In this document: positions 9,980 to 20,962 of the stretch, one piece after another
Layout of the letters: each line of letters begins with the position of its first letter
Numbering within the stretch: the first letter of the stretch is position 1
Source of the DNA: Symmachiella dynata
GTDB lineage: Bacteria > Planctomycetota > Planctomycetia > Planctomycetales > Planctomycetaceae
Assembly: GCF_007747995.1 (NCBI RefSeq)
Contig: NZ_CP036276.1
Span: forward strand, 6,562,001 to 6,626,000
Direction: 5' to 3'
Length of the DNA stretch: 64,000 nucleotides
Program-made: the position numbers and the translations under genes
The notes under the pieces: generated by a model
Told to the model about the DNA's origin: nothing
The model's input: only the letters and a program-made list of their open reading frames with translations
Databases searched by the model: none

Positions 9980-11209
9980 ATGCGAATCGCCCGTCAGATG
10001 GTACTGTTATTGGCTTTGGGCATCGCAACGTTCGTAACGACGGCCCAGGCGACGCTGCTCGCTTGTCCGTTTTGCAGCGCCCCTTCGTTGACCTTCAGCG
10101 AACAACTCGCCACCGCCGACGCTGCGGTCCTGGTGCAATGGGTCTCCGCTAAAAAAGGGAACGCGTTCGACGACGATGGCCTGGCGCTTGAGGACACCAC
10201 CAAGCTCATTCCTGATCGCACCACCTACAAGATCACCCAAGTGCTGCGGAACACCAAAGACAAGACCCTCGAAAAAGGGCAAAAAATCGAACTGGCCCGC
10301 TTTCGTTCCGGCAAAAAGGGAGATCTGTTTCTGATCCTGGGCACGCAGGGGAACGAGCTGGAATGGGGCAGCCCGATCGAAGTCACCGAAACCAGCTTCA
10401 ACTACATTGCGCAAGCGCCGTCGCCGGAATCAGATCAACAAAAACGGTTGGCGTACTTCCTGAAGTTTCTAGAGTTCCCGGACGAGATGATTGCCAACGA
10501 CGCCTATGCGGAATTCGCCAATGCTCCCTACAAAGACATCGCGCAACTGGCCGATCAACTTCCTCGCGAAAAACTCGCCGGATGGATTACCAACGACGAC
10601 ACCCCAGCCACGCGGCTTGGCCTGTATGGTTTATTGCTCGGCCTGTGTGGCAAAGAGTCCGACGCGGAATTGATGCAGAATAAAATCACCGAAGAGACCG
10701 AACAATTCCGGTTGGGGATGGACGGCATCATCGGCGGTTATCTACTGCTCTCCGGCGAAGAGGGTTTGAAAGTGATCGAGCAGACCAAGTTCGTCAAAAA
10801 CCCCGACAAGAAAGTCCCGTTTAGCGAAACCTACGCCGCCATGCAGGCGTTGCGATTCGTCTGGAAGTATGCGGATGACCGCTTCGAGCCGGAACGTTTG
10901 CGGCAGTCGATGCGAATTCTCCTGGAGCGCCCGGAACTGGCCGATTTGGTGATCGCCGACTTGGCGCGGTGGAAAGATTGGTCGGTGCTCGAACAATTGA
11001 TGGCGCTTTACGACTCCGAGGAATACAACGTCCCCTCAGTGAAACGGGCCATCGTCCGCTACTTACTGACCTGCTCGAAAGACGATCGCCAAGGCGAAGA
11101 CATCCAACCGCCACCCCGCGCCGCCGATGCCGAAAAGGCCTTAGCCGTATTGCGGCAAAAGGACCCCCGCACCGTGAAGGAAGCGGAACGGTTCTTCATT
11201 ATCAATTAA
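9980..11209 (+). CDS. Exported CPFC-motif protein with helical repeats, paralogue A
   Basis: A 409-residue protein with a signal peptide (LLLALGIATFVTTAQA) followed directly by LLACPFCSAPSLTF, a CxxC motif at 29-32. Residues 40-150 look like a beta-rich domain (TADAAVLVQWV, TTYKITQVLRN, GDLFLILGTQG, LEWGSPIEVTE). The rest is helical and repeat-like (NDAYAEFANAPYKDI, RLGLYGLLLGLCG, ERLRQSMRILLERPELADL), similar to HEAT-type folds. No enzyme motif is seen. AAGGAG precedes the ATG by about eight bases. It is closely related to the next gene, so the pair arose by tandem duplication. The position after the DUF3299 genes suggests a shared job at the envelope, but function is unknown. Confidence 0.75.
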   Translation: MRIARQMVLLLALGIATFVTTAQATLLACPFCSAPSLTFSEQLATADAAVLVQWVSAKKGNAFDDDGLALEDTTKLIPDRTTYKITQVLRNTKDKTLEKGQKIELARFRSGKKGDLFLILGTQGNELEWGSPIEVTETSFNYIAQAPSPESDQQKRLAYFLKFLEFPDEMIANDAYAEFANAPYKDIAQLADQLPREKLAGWITNDDTPATRLGLYGLLLGLCGKESDAELMQNKITEETEQFRLGMDGIIGGYLLLSGEEGLKVIEQTKFVKNPDKKVPFSETYAAMQALRFVWKYADDRFEPERLRQSMRILLERPELADLVIADLARWKDWSVLEQLMALYDSEEYNVPSVKRAIVRYLLTCSKDDRQGEDIQPPPRAADAEKALAVLRQKDPRTVKEAERFFIIN

Positions 11210-11247: not shown

Positions 11248-12501
11248 ATGGATCGACCTATGCAATCGCCAGATCCCGTTGTCTCTCGAATTCACCGGGC
11301 TGGATTTGTCTTCTGCTTGGCTGTGCTTGGTGTGTTGCTCTGCGCTGCGACCACGGTCGCTTGCCCGTTTTGTGCCCCGACCGACACACTCGCCAATCAG
11401 ATTTTTCTGGTCGATGCCACTGTGGTGGTGAAACGGGTTGCTGGCGAAGAAGGCCAAGACGGACTGCCGGGGACGACGACCGTCCGTATCGAGCGGGTGC
11501 TGCATATCTCGACGGCTTTGGCCAAGTCCTTTGTAGTTGATCAATCAGCCGACGCCAAACCGGGCGCCATGCCGCCGGTCGTTGGTGATGAGATTGTGAT
11601 CCGCCGCTACTATCCCCCCAAAGAGGGAGCCCAGTACCTGCTCCGCGGCGCCGATCCGGAAAACCTGGTCTGGGGTGACAACATGATCGAGGTGGATGAT
11701 GAAGTCATCAAGTATGTGATGGACGCCCCTCCCGTCGATGCACCCGCTACGAAACGGGGAGATTACTATTTGGCGCTGCTGGAAAACAAAAACCAGGAAA
11801 TCGCCCAAGACGCTTACGCCGAATTTGCTTCGATGCCCTACGAAGACGTGGCTTCGTTTCGGGATCGTATGCCGCGGGAAAAACTGCGCAAGTGGATTTT
11901 TGACGAACAAATCCCCGGCACGCGACTCGGACTGTACGGTTTGATGCTGGGGCTGTGCGGCGACGATACGGATGCAGCGCTGCTGGAAAAGAAAATCCGC
12001 GAACGCTCCTCCGATTTTCGCTTGGGGATCGATGGCGTGATGGGGGGCTATCTGCTGCTCACCGGTGAACGTGGACTTGATTTTCTGGAAACCGAGGTCC
12101 TCAAAAACAAAGACATCCCCAACGGCGAATTGCTGGCCGCCATGCAAGCCATGCGGTTCATGTGGACTTACGGCAACGGACGTGTGAGCAAGCAGCGATT
12201 GCGTGCGGCGATGCGACTGCTGATTGACCATCCGCAGCATATCGACATGGCGATACGCGACTTGGCCCGCTGGGACGATTGGGACGACATGGACCGCGTC
12301 GTCGGCCTGTATGGCACCAAAGACTACGACGATCTCGCCGCCCGCGTGGCGATCGTCAAATACGTCCTCGCCGCCATCAATCGCAAACCCACAGACGACG
12401 AGACCGGCCTGCAAGAAAAAGCCCGCCGACATTTAGCTGACTTGCGCAAAAAAGATCCCAAGATCGTGCAACGTGCCGAACGTTTCTTCGACATCCGTTA
12501 G
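11248..12501 (+). CDS. Exported CPFC-motif protein with helical repeats, paralogue B
   Basis: A 417-residue protein from the ATG at 11248 (a second ATG at 11260 is possible); the upstream open frame overlaps paralogue A and is not used. A signal peptide (FCLAVLGVLLCAATTVA) leads into CPFCAPTDT at 39-47. Domain order is the same as in paralogue A: a beta-rich region with IFLVDATVVVKRV and YLLRGADPENLVWGD, then a helical region with QDAYAEFASMPYEDV and TRLGLYGLMLGLCGDD. Shared signatures include PREKL, RLGLYGL, LGLCG, GGYLLL and AMRLL/SMRIL. The 38-base gap implies cotranscription with paralogue A. Function is unknown; the conserved CxxC just after the cleavage site could hold a metal or a disulfide. 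Confidence 0.75.
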   Translation: MDRPMQSPDPVVSRIHRAGFVFCLAVLGVLLCAATTVACPFCAPTDTLANQIFLVDATVVVKRVAGEEGQDGLPGTTTVRIERVLHISTALAKSFVVDQSADAKPGAMPPVVGDEIVIRRYYPPKEGAQYLLRGADPENLVWGDNMIEVDDEVIKYVMDAPPVDAPATKRGDYYLALLENKNQEIAQDAYAEFASMPYEDVASFRDRMPREKLRKWIFDEQIPGTRLGLYGLMLGLCGDDTDAALLEKKIRERSSDFRLGIDGVMGGYLLLTGERGLDFLETEVLKNKDIPNGELLAAMQAMRFMWTYGNGRVSKQRLRAAMRLLIDHPQHIDMAIRDLARWDDWDDMDRVVGLYGTKDYDDLAARVAIVKYVLAAINRKPTDDETGLQEKARRHLADLRKKDPKIVQRAERFFDIR

Positions 12502-16867: not shown

Positions 16868-17941
16868 ATGGCCGTAAAATTTGTCTTGATCCTTAGTGTG
16901 ATTGCCCAATTGACGGCCGCCGGTCTGGCGTTGCGGCTGAATCAATTGTACCGCCGCCGATCCGCTTGGATTTTCATCTCCGCCGCTGCCATCGTCATGA
17001 CCATCGGCCGTGCCACGAGCCTGGTTAGCACATGGGGTGAGCGACTCGCTGATGCAGAGGCCGATGCCGCATTTTGGACCGAAAGCCTAATCGGTCTCTT
17101 GGTGTCGATTTTACTCGTGGCTGGAATCGCCCTCATTGAACCGCTGTTTGTGGAGCTCCATAAAGCCGAAGCGTTGCTCAGACGCGATAAGAAACGGCTG
17201 GAGCAGGTTGTCCGGCGAAACGAAGACGAGTTGCGCATCGCCCGGCAAATTCAGGAAAACCTATTTCCCGAGGAACCGCCCGACATCAAAGACTACGATG
17301 TCGCTGGGGCATCCAAACCGGCCGAGTGGGCCAGCGGTGATTATTTCGATTACATCCCTATGCACGACGGCAGCCACATCGTTGTCGTAGCCGACGTCAG
17401 CGGACATGGCATTGGCCCGGCGTTGTTGATGTCCGAAACGCGGGCTTTTCTCCGGTCCCTGGCTCAGACGCGCAACGACATTGGCGAAATCCTGACACTG
17501 GCCAATCATGCTGTCGCCCAGGATGTCGAAGAGGGACGCTTCGTGACCATTTTCATGGCGCGACTGGAATCGGAATCCTCATCCACGACATACACCAGTG
17601 CCGGGCATAACGCTTATCTGCTGCGAGCCAACGGCGAAGGGCAGGTCCTGAGCCCAACCGGCATCGCCTTGGGCATTGATGAAAACGCTGTGATGAACAA
17701 CTCCCAGCCCATCCAACTGGAACGCGGCGATCTCATGCTACTGGTGACCGACGGGATTTTGGAGACAACCGATGCTGAGGGCACGCTGTTCGGCGAAGAG
17801 CGTCTGTTCGAAGTAGCGCGACAAAGTCGTGACGGCTCAGCGTTTGAGGTGGTTGAATCCATCTTCAAAGCTGCTGATGACTTTTCCGCCAGCAGCACTC
17901 AAAAGGATGACAATACCGCCGTGGTTGTCAAATACCGCTGA
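16868..17941 (+). CDS. Membrane-bound PP2C-type (SpoIIE/RsbU) serine phosphatase
   Basis: A 357-residue protein. Three membrane helices fill residues 1-100 (AVKFVLILSVIAQLTAAGLAL, WIFISAAAIVMTIG, SLIGLLVSILLVAGIALI). A coiled-coil linker (EALLRRDKKRLEQVVRRNED) leads to a SpoIIE phosphatase domain from about 135: QENLFPEEPP, then metal-binding aspartates in ASGDYFDY and VADVSGHGIGPALLMS, LLVTDGILETTD, and the terminal KDDNTAVVVKY. RsbU-type enzymes dephosphorylate anti-anti-sigma (STAS) proteins and so control partner-switching pathways. No STAS or anti-sigma gene lies next to it. The N-terminal membrane part could sense an envelope signal. Confidence 0.88.
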   Translation: MAVKFVLILSVIAQLTAAGLALRLNQLYRRRSAWIFISAAAIVMTIGRATSLVSTWGERLADAEADAAFWTESLIGLLVSILLVAGIALIEPLFVELHKAEALLRRDKKRLEQVVRRNEDELRIARQIQENLFPEEPPDIKDYDVAGASKPAEWASGDYFDYIPMHDGSHIVVVADVSGHGIGPALLMSETRAFLRSLAQTRNDIGEILTLANHAVAQDVEEGRFVTIFMARLESESSSTTYTSAGHNAYLLRANGEGQVLSPTGIALGIDENAVMNNSQPIQLERGDLMLLVTDGILETTDAEGTLFGEERLFEVARQSRDGSAFEVVESIFKAADDFSASSTQKDDNTAVVVKYR

Positions 17942-18265
17942 GGCACTGCGACTCCCGAGTCAGCGTCTGATCCGGCGCAACGAGTCGCTGAGTGCTTTGC
18001 AAAAACCTGAAATTTGGGATGCGACTGGCTTTGCCAGTGCTTGGTAACCACTTCAAACACTTAAAACTGGCGCTGGTAAAGCCAGTGGCAGACACCTCTA
18101 GGGTTTCCTCCCTGACAACGCGCTGCATCCGCGAGTTTTATTGCGTTTTTTTACATCAAACCACGGGCTGCATCTTAGATGGCTCGCTGAATGTAAAATC
18201 GCCAAAATCCCTGGTCGTGCAGCGCGTCGTTTTTACAAACTCTCGATGCGCAGTCAACGCGGCGA
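17942..18265. other. Intergenic region with a palindromic repeat
   Basis: A stretch of 324 bases between the phosphatase and a small minus-strand gene. It carries one GGGTGCCACTGGC-family palindrome (18021-18098). The rest shows nothing I can name; the sequence after 18120 is moderately AT-rich and has no good coding frame. Confidence 0.45.
18021..18098. repeat. Nested palindrome, CACTGGC family (diverged copy)
   Basis: GCGACTGGCTTTGCCAGTGC at the left and CGCTGGTAAAGCCAGTGGC at the right are each hairpins, and the two halves also pair with each other. Related copies are at 25497, 39408, 40969 and 53792. It begins 80 bases after the phosphatase stop. Confidence 0.6.
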
Positions 18266-18484
18266 CTAGAGAAAGATCGTGTCATTTAAGCAGTCGTGAC
18301 GATCGTCGTTCCCCGTGGATTGCGCATCCTCATTGCGCAGATTGTCGACCGCTTCTATGACTTTCAAACGGTCGACTTCGGCGATAAGTGCCGAAACATG
18401 TTTGCGCCACAAGGGGTTGCAATACGCAGTCTCAAGGAGATGTTTGATTTCCGCCAATTCGGCGTCGGTCATGGGAGAGGTCAT
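18266..18484 (-). CDS. Small hypothetical protein
   Basis: A 72-residue acidic protein with no signal peptide. An N-terminal helix (MTDAELAEIKHLLETAY) is followed by NPLWRKHVSALIAEVDRLK and a polar Asn/Asp-rich tail. The helices suggest a small DNA-associated or adaptor-like protein, but no family is recognised. The frame is supported by amphipathic helix pattern and a start with a second methionine four codons in. It stands alone between two palindrome-rich gaps. Confidence 0.45.
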   Translation of the reverse strand: MTSPMTDAELAEIKHLLETAYCNPLWRKHVSALIAEVDRLKVIEAVDNLRNEDAQSTGNDDRHDCLNDTIFL

Positions 18485-18705
18485 CGTGATCCGGCCCGCT
18501 GGAATTTTGAGAGAGATTTGTCAGGCTCAGAGCATTGCTGCGCTCCACCTGTACAATTGAGAGGCGGGATGACCTGTGCAGTTTTTGTGCCAGGATCAAT
18601 TGAGATTGATCGCTTGCAGACGCAAGCAGCGCGTCGGGAGAGGTGAAGTGAATTTGACGGGAGCCTGTGGGAAAGGGACTGCGATTTATTCCCACCGCGC
18701 AGCAA

Positions 18706-18731
18706 GAAACGCCCGACAATGCGGGCGTTTC
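18706..18731. terminator. Hairpin with 10-bp perfect stem, likely terminator
   Basis: GAAACGCCCG at 18706-18715 pairs exactly with CGGGCGTTTC at 18722-18731 around a 6-base loop. On the minus strand it reads out through GGGCGTTTCTT, a terminator-like end. It lies about 240 bases downstream of the CCAP gene. Confidence 0.55.
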
Positions 18732-18836
18732 TCGACAATACGATTCCTCTGCGAAAACTCAATCTCTGTCGATCATCGGCGTCAATTGTGTTGCGGTTTT
18801 CGCGATCAGTTGGCTTGGCGGAGTTGGCGATGAGTT

Positions 18837-18872
18837 CCTGGGAAGGAAGGCACGATTTCCTTCCTCCCCAGG
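18837..18872. repeat. Hairpin with 14-bp near-perfect stem
   Basis: CCTGGGAAGGAAGG at 18837-18850 pairs with CCTTCCTCCCCAGG at 18859-18872 with one mismatch and an 8-base loop. It starts 98 bases downstream of the CCAP gene stop on the minus strand and may protect or end that transcript. Confidence 0.55.
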
Positions 18873-18969: not shown

Positions 18970-19455
18970 CTAGGGAGCACAGCAGCCAGCAGCAGCCGGA
19001 GCACAGCAGTTGGCCGGAGCCGGGGCACAGCAGCTAGGAGCGGCTGGGGCACAGCAGGTGGCCGGTGCCGGAGCACAAGCGGCGGGGGCACAGCAAGTTG
19101 CCGGAGCCGGGGCACAGCAGGCCGGGGCACAGCAAGCGGGGGCACAGCAGCTGTTGCAGCACTTTTTCTTCTTGAACTTACGGCACATCTTTTTGAACCA
19201 ACCGCACTTTTTCTTTTTGCAGCAGCAGGTGTTGCAGCATTCAACTGGAGCACAGCAGGTCGTCGGGGCGCAGCAAGTTGTGGGAGCCGGAGCACAGCAG
19301 GCGGCCGCGGGGGCACAGCATGAAGGCGCAGGCGCACAGCACGAAGGTTCGGGGGCACAGCAACCACGTTTGTGCTTACCGAACAAGCCGGCGTCGGCTT
19401 GGCTCGTGATGGCACAACAGATCATCAATGCCGCAGTAAAGGTCATCCACTTCAT
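18970..19455 (-). CDS. Secreted CCAP-repeat cysteine-rich protein
   Basis: A 161-residue protein with a signal peptide ([22 protein letters not shown]). The mature part holds 14 CCAP units, most preceded by one to four small residues, in two blocks split by a basic core at about 75-98 ([24 protein letters not shown]). By my count about 40 of 161 residues are Cys. No enzyme fold is possible; a cross-linked surface, matrix or metal-binding role is likely. Similar CCAP proteins occur in other planctomycetes without known function. AGGAG stands ten bases before the ATG. The repeat DNA opens a long antisense frame, which is an artefact of the periodic sequence. Confidence 0.72.
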
Positions 19456-19936
19456 ATCAGAGCATCTCCTAATTTTGCTAATGCGAACGTGAGCGACACC
19501 CTCGGTTCACAGGAGGCGAATCACGCCGTTGGTTCGAGGATTCTTGTCGCCCATCAAGTCATTTTGGGTAAGACACTATTTTTTTCGGCGATCTCACGAA
19601 TCCAGGCACATCGAATATTGAGATCGGACCGTAATCGGGCGAATCCCGCTAGCGATGGGACGATTATTTCGATTGGCGCGATCTCTCCATGCACGGATAT
19701 CCTCCGGAATACGTGCAATCGGCGTGACCCTATCTCATTGAACCGCGAGCCGATTCGCTAAGCCATTCCGAGCGATTTTCGCAGCACACAATTCGCTCCC
19801 TTTTGAGCCGATTCCCACCCCACAGGTCAAACAGGCCTTGAGAGAATCAAGCTTCTAGCTACCATTAACTAGGGAGAGTGTCCGCACGAGGACAAAACTC
19901 GCCCGCTGTTTTGTATTCCTCATCGAGGTCCCTTGG
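19456..19936. other. Divergent intergenic region, promoters expected
   Basis: About 480 bases separate the CCAP gene (minus) from the terpenoid-cyclase-fold gene (plus). Its composition is even, with no strong hairpin or clear promoter pair. A plus-strand frame at 19372-19761 lacks any family signal and starts inside the CCAP gene. Confidence 0.4.
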
Positions 19937-20962
19937 ATGAACCGCGTACTTGCACTCACCCTGGCTTGGCTCGTTTTGGCATCTGGAGCCGAACTCCAGG
20001 CAGCACGCAAAACCGACCCCAAAGTCGCCGGTGCTGTCCAACGTGCCTTGGATTATCTCGCCCGCGAACAACGGCCCCAGGGTTACTGGGAAGCCCAACA
20101 CTCCCAATACCGCGTCGCCATGACCGCCCTGGCGGGAAATGCGTTGCTGTGCGAAGGCTCAACCACCACCCGGGGAAAATACTCCCGGCAGATTCAGCTA
20201 GCCGTCGACTACTTGATCGAACGCTCCCGCAAGAACGGCCTGATCGGCTACCAAAACGATTACCACTACATGTACGGTCACGGATTCTCCATGCTGTTTT
20301 TGTCGCAGGTGTTCGGCGAAGAAGAGAAAGAACAGCGCCGCGAAGAACTCAAATACGTCCTCACCAAAGCTGTCGATTTTTGCGGCAAAGCACAAACCAA
20401 ATCGGGCGGTTGGGGTTACGTCTCCGCAAAAGACGGTAACGATTTTGACGAAGGCTCAACCTGTATCACGCAGGTACAGGGATTACGGGCCTGTCGCAAT
20501 GCCGGGATTCCCGTCCCCAAGGAGATCATCGATAAAGCGGTGACCTACATCGAAAAATGCACAACCAAAGAAGGGGGCGTGCAATACTCCATTCGCGGCG
20601 GCGGAGCCCGTCCTCCGATCACTGCAGCGGCGTTGGCCTGCATGTTCAATTCCGGCGAGTACGAGTCGGAATACACGAAGCGGCTGCTGGCCTACTGCAA
20701 AAAGAACCTCACCGTCACCGGCGGCTCCTCCCGCTCCTTCGGCCATTGGCATTACGCGCACTACTATTACGCACAGGTGATGTATCGGCTGGATGGCAAC
20801 GAATGGGACAAATACATCCGCGACCTCAGCAACACCATTCTCCGCCGCCAATCGGCCGACGGCAGCTGGAAAGAGGGGCACGTGGGACCGGTCTACACCA
20901 CAGCAATCAACGCCACAATCCTACAACTCGAAAACGGCTTCCTGCCGATTTACCAGCGCTAA
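19937..20962 (+). CDS. Exported prenyltransferase/squalene-oxidase-repeat (terpenoid cyclase fold) protein
   Basis: A 341-residue protein with a signal peptide (LALTLAWLVLASGAELQA). The mature chain consists of alpha/alpha-barrel repeats: AVQRALDYLAREQRPQGYWEA, QLAVDYLIERSRKNGLIGY, KAVDFCGKAQTKSGGWGY and DLSNTILRRQSADGSWKEG carry the QxxxGxW-like pattern of the prenyltransferase/squalene cyclase repeat. No DXDD or DDTAD acid motif of a working cyclase is seen. Planctomycetes hold many exported proteins of this kind, with unknown ligands. Upstream GAGG fits the chosen ATG. It converges with the oxidoreductase gene over a 125-base gap holding a palindromic element. Confidence 0.75.
   Translation: MNRVLALTLAWLVLASGAELQAARKTDPKVAGAVQRALDYLAREQRPQGYWEAQHSQYRVAMTALAGNALLCEGSTTTRGKYSRQIQLAVDYLIERSRKNGLIGYQNDYHYMYGHGFSMLFLSQVFGEEEKEQRREELKYVLTKAVDFCGKAQTKSGGWGYVSAKDGNDFDEGSTCITQVQGLRACRNAGIPVPKEIIDKAVTYIEKCTTKEGGVQYSIRGGGARPPITAAALACMFNSGEYESEYTKRLLAYCKKNLTVTGGSSRSFGHWHYAHYYYAQVMYRLDGNEWDKYIRDLSNTILRRQSADGSWKEGHVGPVYTTAINATILQLENGFLPIYQR

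Follow-up and report, generated by a model that had tools for sequence, protein, structure and literature searches.

We propose that the CCAP protein encoded at 18970–19455 is probably secreted and serves as a structural component of the planctomycete envelope, where disulfides would hold it in place. It lies in a 64,000-nucleotide stretch of the Symmachiella dynata genome, referred to here as the window. The first-pass annotation of this DNA had offered two readings, a cross-linked coat component and a metal sponge. The coat is the better backed, by the export signal, the conservation of cysteines, a VKOR gene in the genome, the Cys-Ala-Pro tails of YTV wall proteins, and a report on the Planctomyces envelope (PMC3035269). 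The gene, its flanking signals, and the parts of its product are arranged as follows.

18970..19455, minus strand: CDS of the CCAP protein, 161 aa, with an ATG start; a same-genus orthologue is 96% identical
19466..19470, minus strand: ribosome-binding site AGGAG, read from the sequence
19390..19455, minus strand: signal peptide, residues 1–22, by inspection; putative cleavage between ADA and GLFG; AlphaFold (AF2) helix at 5–19
19246..19362, minus strand: N-terminal arm, residues 32–70, six CCAP units, from sequence composition
19156..19227, minus strand: basic Lys-rich cysteine core, residues 77–100, with a predicted helix at 87–94
18973..19149, minus strand: C-terminal arm, residues 103–161, eight CCAP units and one CAP, from sequence composition
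18837..18872, minus strand: hairpin 1, 3′ of the stop codon, −28.1 kcal/mol, without a U-tract; the same-genus relative has two changes in the stem
18702..18736, minus strand: hairpin 2, −21.9 kcal/mol; the same-genus relative retains the stem

Judged from its sequence, 18970–19455 is a real gene, with an AGGAG site, a signal peptide, and an orthologue of equal protein length that keeps all 40 cysteines. That orthologue (G001) differs from the window gene at 27 nucleotides, 20 of them at third positions, with 19 codons changed silently and 7 by replacement. These counts were considered as proof of the coding strand and rejected, since an antisense frame with coinciding third positions gives the same 19/7. 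A long antisense ORF runs from 19010 to 19492 on the plus strand. Since 39 of 63 ORFs examined in the family likewise have one antisense frame open throughout, the repeats themselves probably give rise to it. Entry to the 63-ORF set required three CC.P units, and no row was dropped. It takes in five members from the organism's own genome; L085, which looks like a non-member; and L076 (4001–4435), a homologue from a metagenome-assembled genome whose second half looks frame-shifted, through assembly error or decay. The minus strand is taken as coding because the ribosome site, the export site, and an AGLF-like start recur in homologous ORFs of other genera. GGAG, AGGA, or GAGG lies upstream of 60 of the 63, a figure biased upward because the choice of starts favored such sites. 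A skeptic could hold that the ORF is no gene, only a repeat with chance open frames, and could cite the equally open antisense frame with its identical 19/7 pattern. Against this stand the recurrence of ribosome site, signal peptide, and core across genera and the orthologue of identical length, and we regard such an explanation as barely credible.

Both downstream hairpins are predicted to fold strongly as RNA (z −5.3 and −6.0). They had been read as a sign of a stable transcript, but that reading gains little here: the terminator scan found two U-tailed terminators, both on the plus strand, and none on the strand of the CCAP gene. The gene is adjoined by a divergently transcribed squalene-cyclase-like gene (19937–20962) and followed downstream by a small ORF (18266–18484), both common to the genus; outside the genus the neighborhood differs. 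Synteny was therefore rejected as a clue to function, because neighbors are common only within the genus and the genes that do recur have no evident link. Of the 37 stretches compared, some of which represent the same genome twice, nine contain a SpoIIE-type phosphatase gene and six an Hpt-type gene. In L074, L077, L081, L086, L093, L095, L100, L103, and the window (16868–17941), no more than 5 kb separates the SpoIIE-type gene from the CCAP gene, and both of the phosphatases scanned contain a GAF domain. A protein of about 300 aa without a Pfam match is encoded nearby in nine stretches, partly other than these, and the six stretches with an Hpt-type gene are different again. Among ten neighbor genes scanned beside CCAP homologues, none was a known wall gene. 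Elsewhere in the window, the phosphatase gene is separated from the CCAP region by a segment with an inverted repeat, ctggctttgccagtg ... actggcgctggtaaagccagt (18020–18095), and adjacent paralogues about 40% alike occupy 9980–11209 and 11275–12501, each with ACPFC after a signal-like start.

The protein itself is as the first-pass annotation described it: about a quarter cysteine, with 14 CCAP units on both sides of a Lys-rich core. There are exactly 14 units, six before the core and eight after it, plus one CAP without the first Cys, and the 161 residues include 40 Cys (24.8%), 40 Ala, 22 Pro, and 14 Lys; the arms contain hardly any Lys or Arg. In 20,000 shuffles of the mature part, the number of CCAP units averaged 0.41 and never exceeded 4. 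The signal peptide proposed earlier was likewise supported, by the ADA–GLFG site and by AxA[GA] in 50 of the 63 family ORFs; 49 of the 63 have an AGLF-like mature start, and the window protein reads ADAGLFG. By inspection, LMIC at residues 10–13 does not look like a canonical lipobox, and the protein has an AxA site instead. Ala and Pro codons differ between the CCAP units, and the array is therefore no fresh duplication. The Cys pair is TGC-TGT in 13 of the 14 units, and this uniformity could be the trace of an older duplication. The 63 family ORFs contain 850 CC dipeptides, of which 773 have TGC as their first codon and 426 have TGT as their second. Free variation of the repeat number with frameshifts, which had been named as a pattern that would speak against the protein, was not what we found: the two nearest relatives both have a CCxP number of 14, and homologues in which it differs are still open frames, with L076 as the one copy that looks frame-shifted.

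The core is the only mature part for which AlphaFold predicts a helix; helices were placed only at residues 5–19 and 87–94, with a mean pLDDT of 49 and a pTM of 0.16. The best helical moment of the window core is 0.85, against a shuffle mean of 0.49, with 0.0008 of shuffles as high. In the family the core is rich in K or R, with L, F, W, or M between, and a motif for it, written after inspection, occurs in 41 of the 63 ORFs and in 1.4% of shuffles. Several members (e.g., L016, L071, and L073) carry the core twice, each copy between CCAP blocks. So amphipathic a core could belong to a precursor from which a cationic, membrane-active peptide is freed from its Cys-rich arms. However, most of the protein consists of the arms, whose cysteines are its best-kept residues, and no protease gene was found among seven window proteins scanned, which makes a peptide precursor very unlikely. 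Between the window protein and its homologue in G002, the third member of the genus, all 38 aligned cysteines are kept, versus 25 of 41 other residues, in an alignment that itself favors Cys columns.

The window protein belongs to a family with a recurring plan, as read from its members: a signal peptide, CCxP arrays often spaced 7 apart, and a basic amphipathic core. The window protein has each of these elements, with an AGLF-like start after the signal peptide and at least three CC.P units. Successive CC.P units in the family are 7 residues apart in 212 of 545 cases, 8 in 93, and 5 in 53. No named family was found for the window protein in Pfam (0 matches at E ≤ 0.1), NCBIfam, or a PDB sequence search, and in a literature search that left most subscription journals out of reach none of the papers listed was recognized as describing it. 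Among viral contigs, 17 stretches fit a pattern and were rejected, none being a relative.

The family is widespread among the organism's relatives. With a single sequence as query, 20 of 40 genomes gave a match, and a profile built from 17 homologues matched 61 of 148 genomes of the class, the organism's own being included in both counts. By taxonomic family, the profile matched all 37 genomes drawn from f1, the organism's own; 13 of 16 in f5; 5 of 6 in f11; and 1 of 37 in f2, where the match has an internal stop. The 32 genomes of f3 gave no match, and the 20 genomes of the remaining families gave five. Among the 25 nearest f1 genomes the CCAP family was found in 23; seven had no single-sequence match, the profile recovered five of these but neither G018 nor G024. 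Of 294 genomes drawn from the phylum, 20 belonging to the class matched, and the roughly 273 outside it (the class size being read from listing order) gave one weak match with an internal stop. Weak profile matches coincide with YTV genes in G055, G071, G109, G123, and G048, and a single weak match is therefore not trustworthy alone. These genome searches covered the organism's own phylum. A wider scan, in which each of 84,980 species was represented by a single genome, gave at least 20 loci. Among the matches listed, 18 carry planctomycete titles (Rhodopirellula sp. JC639 and Planctomyces sp. NAT128 are examples); two others lie on one contig titled only "bacterium". Six g37 genomes (G055, G071, G090, G109, G123, and G127) carry a pair of short CCAP genes separated by about 51 kb, and in six g35 genomes (G037, G050, G053, G073, G104, and G111) the two short genes are about 10 kb apart.

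This distribution bears on whether the CCAP protein might be a disulfide-linked part of an extracellular fiber, stalk, or holdfast, lying outside the wall and serving attachment. Some planctomycetes do build such structures: P. limnophilus makes stalks (PMC3035269) and R. baltica a holdfast substance (PMC2754498). The cationic core could also stick to surfaces. Yet the family's presence in all 37 own-family genomes of one draw and in 23 of the 25 nearest is wider than expected for stalks, and beyond the Sec-type signal no secretion route was identified. We therefore consider an attachment role fairly unlikely and retain an envelope component as the preferred reading.

The organism's own genome encodes four further CCAP-family members. 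Two, of about 425–442 aa, have a HEAT-like domain below the Pfam cut-off; in a third, of 270 aa, the HEAT repeats pass that cut-off; and the fourth, of 160 aa, carries a Pro-Ala-Glu tail. The three HEAT-type paralogues (L009, L011, and L107; G000:C1 4274887, 1307905, and 888736, i.e., near 4.275, 1.308, and 0.889 Mb) are CC-rich. They resemble the window protein in their signal peptide and AGLFG or AGWF start and, in the two longer ones, in their CCAP arrays; they differ from it in their length (270–442 aa), their HEAT-like repeats, and a Pro-Ala tail. The two long paralogues end in SHRGL[GS]NLFGL, which resembles the GLFG mature start.

A candidate oxidant for the cysteines is encoded elsewhere in the genome: a VKOR–Thioredoxin_4 fusion, above the Pfam cut-offs, with a DsbA-like thioredoxin carrying CPHC. 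VKOR occurs in 29 of the 61 genomes with the CCAP family (one of the 29 lying below the curated cut-off) versus 6 of the 87 without it (Fisher 2e-8, kinship ignored). No VKOR match was found in the other 32 CCAP genomes, and VKOR therefore cannot be the sole oxidant. The same gene weighs against the metal-sponge reading, in which an exported, metallothionein-like protein would bind metal as thiolates through its CC pairs. Closely spaced pairs at 25% Cys, in a protein for which AF2 gives no confident fold, are what that reading would draw on. Known metallothioneins are cytosolic, whereas the CCAP protein bears an export signal. Pfam contains metallothionein models, and none matched, as the protein has no Pfam-A match at E ≤ 0.1; nor was any metal-resistance gene found among the seven window proteins scanned. 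Beyond its cysteine content nothing positive speaks for a metal sponge, and we rate this half of the earlier proposal the less likely one and, in absolute terms, unlikely.

The envelope in which the CCAP protein would be held is partly described. The Planctomyces envelope is described as proteinaceous, with much proline and cysteine, and as stabilized by disulfides (PMC3035269). Cysteine-rich YTV proteins, the genes for which are confined to Planctomycetales, occur in wall preparations (PMC8567305); they have been called major wall constituents (PMC5287468), and a YTV protein is among the essential genes (PMC10632474). In Tuwongella, however, only the SDS-soluble fraction yielded the two top-scoring YTV proteins (PMC8567305), and some planctomycetes are now reported to have peptidoglycan (PMC5287468); the wall may therefore not be all protein.

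The organism's own genome encodes two YTV proteins (PF07639), above the Pfam cut-off at E 3.6e-59 and 1.6e-37, with about 17% and 11% Cys. The first has SCCAPS near its mature start, CCPADPGCCAPSDCAAPQTCCESK at its C-terminal end, and CCPADPGCCAPSDCAAPQTCC as its end; the second and the 160-aa CCAP paralogue have similar Pro-Ala-Glu tails. The tail motif was examined in the 30 top YTV matches. All are f1 proteins, nine of them from a single genus; the last 60 residues were taken as the tail, and the pattern was chosen after the first proteins had been seen. The tails held 27 Cys-Ala-Pro motifs in 1800 residues, against 9 in 9600 residues of the middle; 15 of the 30 tails have the motif, and Cys makes up 16% of the f1 tails. 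The comparison across families used f1, f2, and f5, with one YTV protein per genome, and these families also differ by descent. In f2, Cys-Ala-Pro occurs in 0 of 14 tails (0 in 840 residues) and tail Cys falls to 8%; in f5, it occurs in 2 of 6, with 18% Cys. The tail pattern may thus go with a shared cross-linking partner, although four of the six f5 tails fail to follow it. The f2 proteins (L146–L159), whose tails are Cys-poor, fall into a shorter type ending in CLTC or similar and a longer type of about 740–820 aa, several of which end in DACDAKHPFF.

The two kinds of protein share further traits. YTV proteins, like the CCAP protein, have a signal peptide (that of the CCAP protein being assigned by inspection and comparison of homologues) and are cysteine-rich; several have an AGLFCG mature start, and half of the own-family ones have the Cys-Ala-Pro tail. 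Both are specific to planctomycetes, as PMC8567305 states for YTV proteins. The CCAP protein, in contrast, is about one-third the length, consists almost wholly of CCAP arrays, and has a narrower distribution. No PF07639 match was found in the window protein (Pfam E ≤ 0.1) or in the 17 homologues, and the Cys-Ala-Pro resemblance may reflect convergence or kinship. Relatives of the first YTV protein occur in 146 of the 148 class genomes versus 61 for the CCAP family. Since f2 and f3 have YTV proteins and are nearly without the CCAP family, a YTV wall can exist without the CCAP protein, which would therefore be an added or alternative envelope component in some lineages.

Two other systems offer comparisons. 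The high-sulfur keratin-associated proteins of hair (Keratin_B2_2, PF13885) have CC-x-P repeats and very high Cys contents, and they serve as a cross-linking matrix. The CCAP protein differs in being bacterial and in having a signal peptide and a basic helix. The high-sulfur keratin model matched 1 of the 17 homologues, at E 0.026, and not the window protein, and we read the likeness as probable convergence. We know of no CCAP arrays in the chlamydial proteins OmcA and OmcB, which are likewise Cys-rich, come from the same superphylum, and differ from the window protein in that the latter has no Pfam match. PMC2811131 describes OmcA and OmcB as cysteine-rich proteins of the envelope that are believed to belong to a complex giving structure.

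Together, these considerations suggest how a disulfide-linked envelope component could be assembled. The Sec pathway would export the CCAP protein, and the signal peptide would be cut off before GLFG. Outside the inner membrane, the CC pairs would be oxidized to interchain disulfides, in this species probably by the VKOR–thioredoxin enzyme. The Pro after each Cys pair would hold the arms extended, so that they bond with neighbors rather than fold. The protein would thereby join a detergent-resistant, proline- and cysteine-rich envelope layer alongside YTV proteins. The basic amphipathic helix would dock this network on an anionic surface, either the outer membrane or a polysaccharide.

A bolder extension of this scheme, which we offer tentatively and as an analogy, is a "bacterial hair". 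YTV proteins would be the long elements and CCAP proteins the high-sulfur matrix; the two would be joined through matching Cys-Ala-Pro modules, much as keratin is linked to its associated proteins in hair, and the helix would pin the mesh to the outer membrane. The lack of the motif from YTV tails in f2, where the CCAP family is nearly absent, is as this extension predicts. Were it true, the CCAP array would act as a transferable cross-linking unit: a short tail in YTV proteins, an arm in the HEAT paralogues, and nearly all of the CCAP protein itself. More broadly, the CCAP family is extreme in its proline and cysteine content and short enough to express and test. It thus makes the composition of the envelope layer directly testable.
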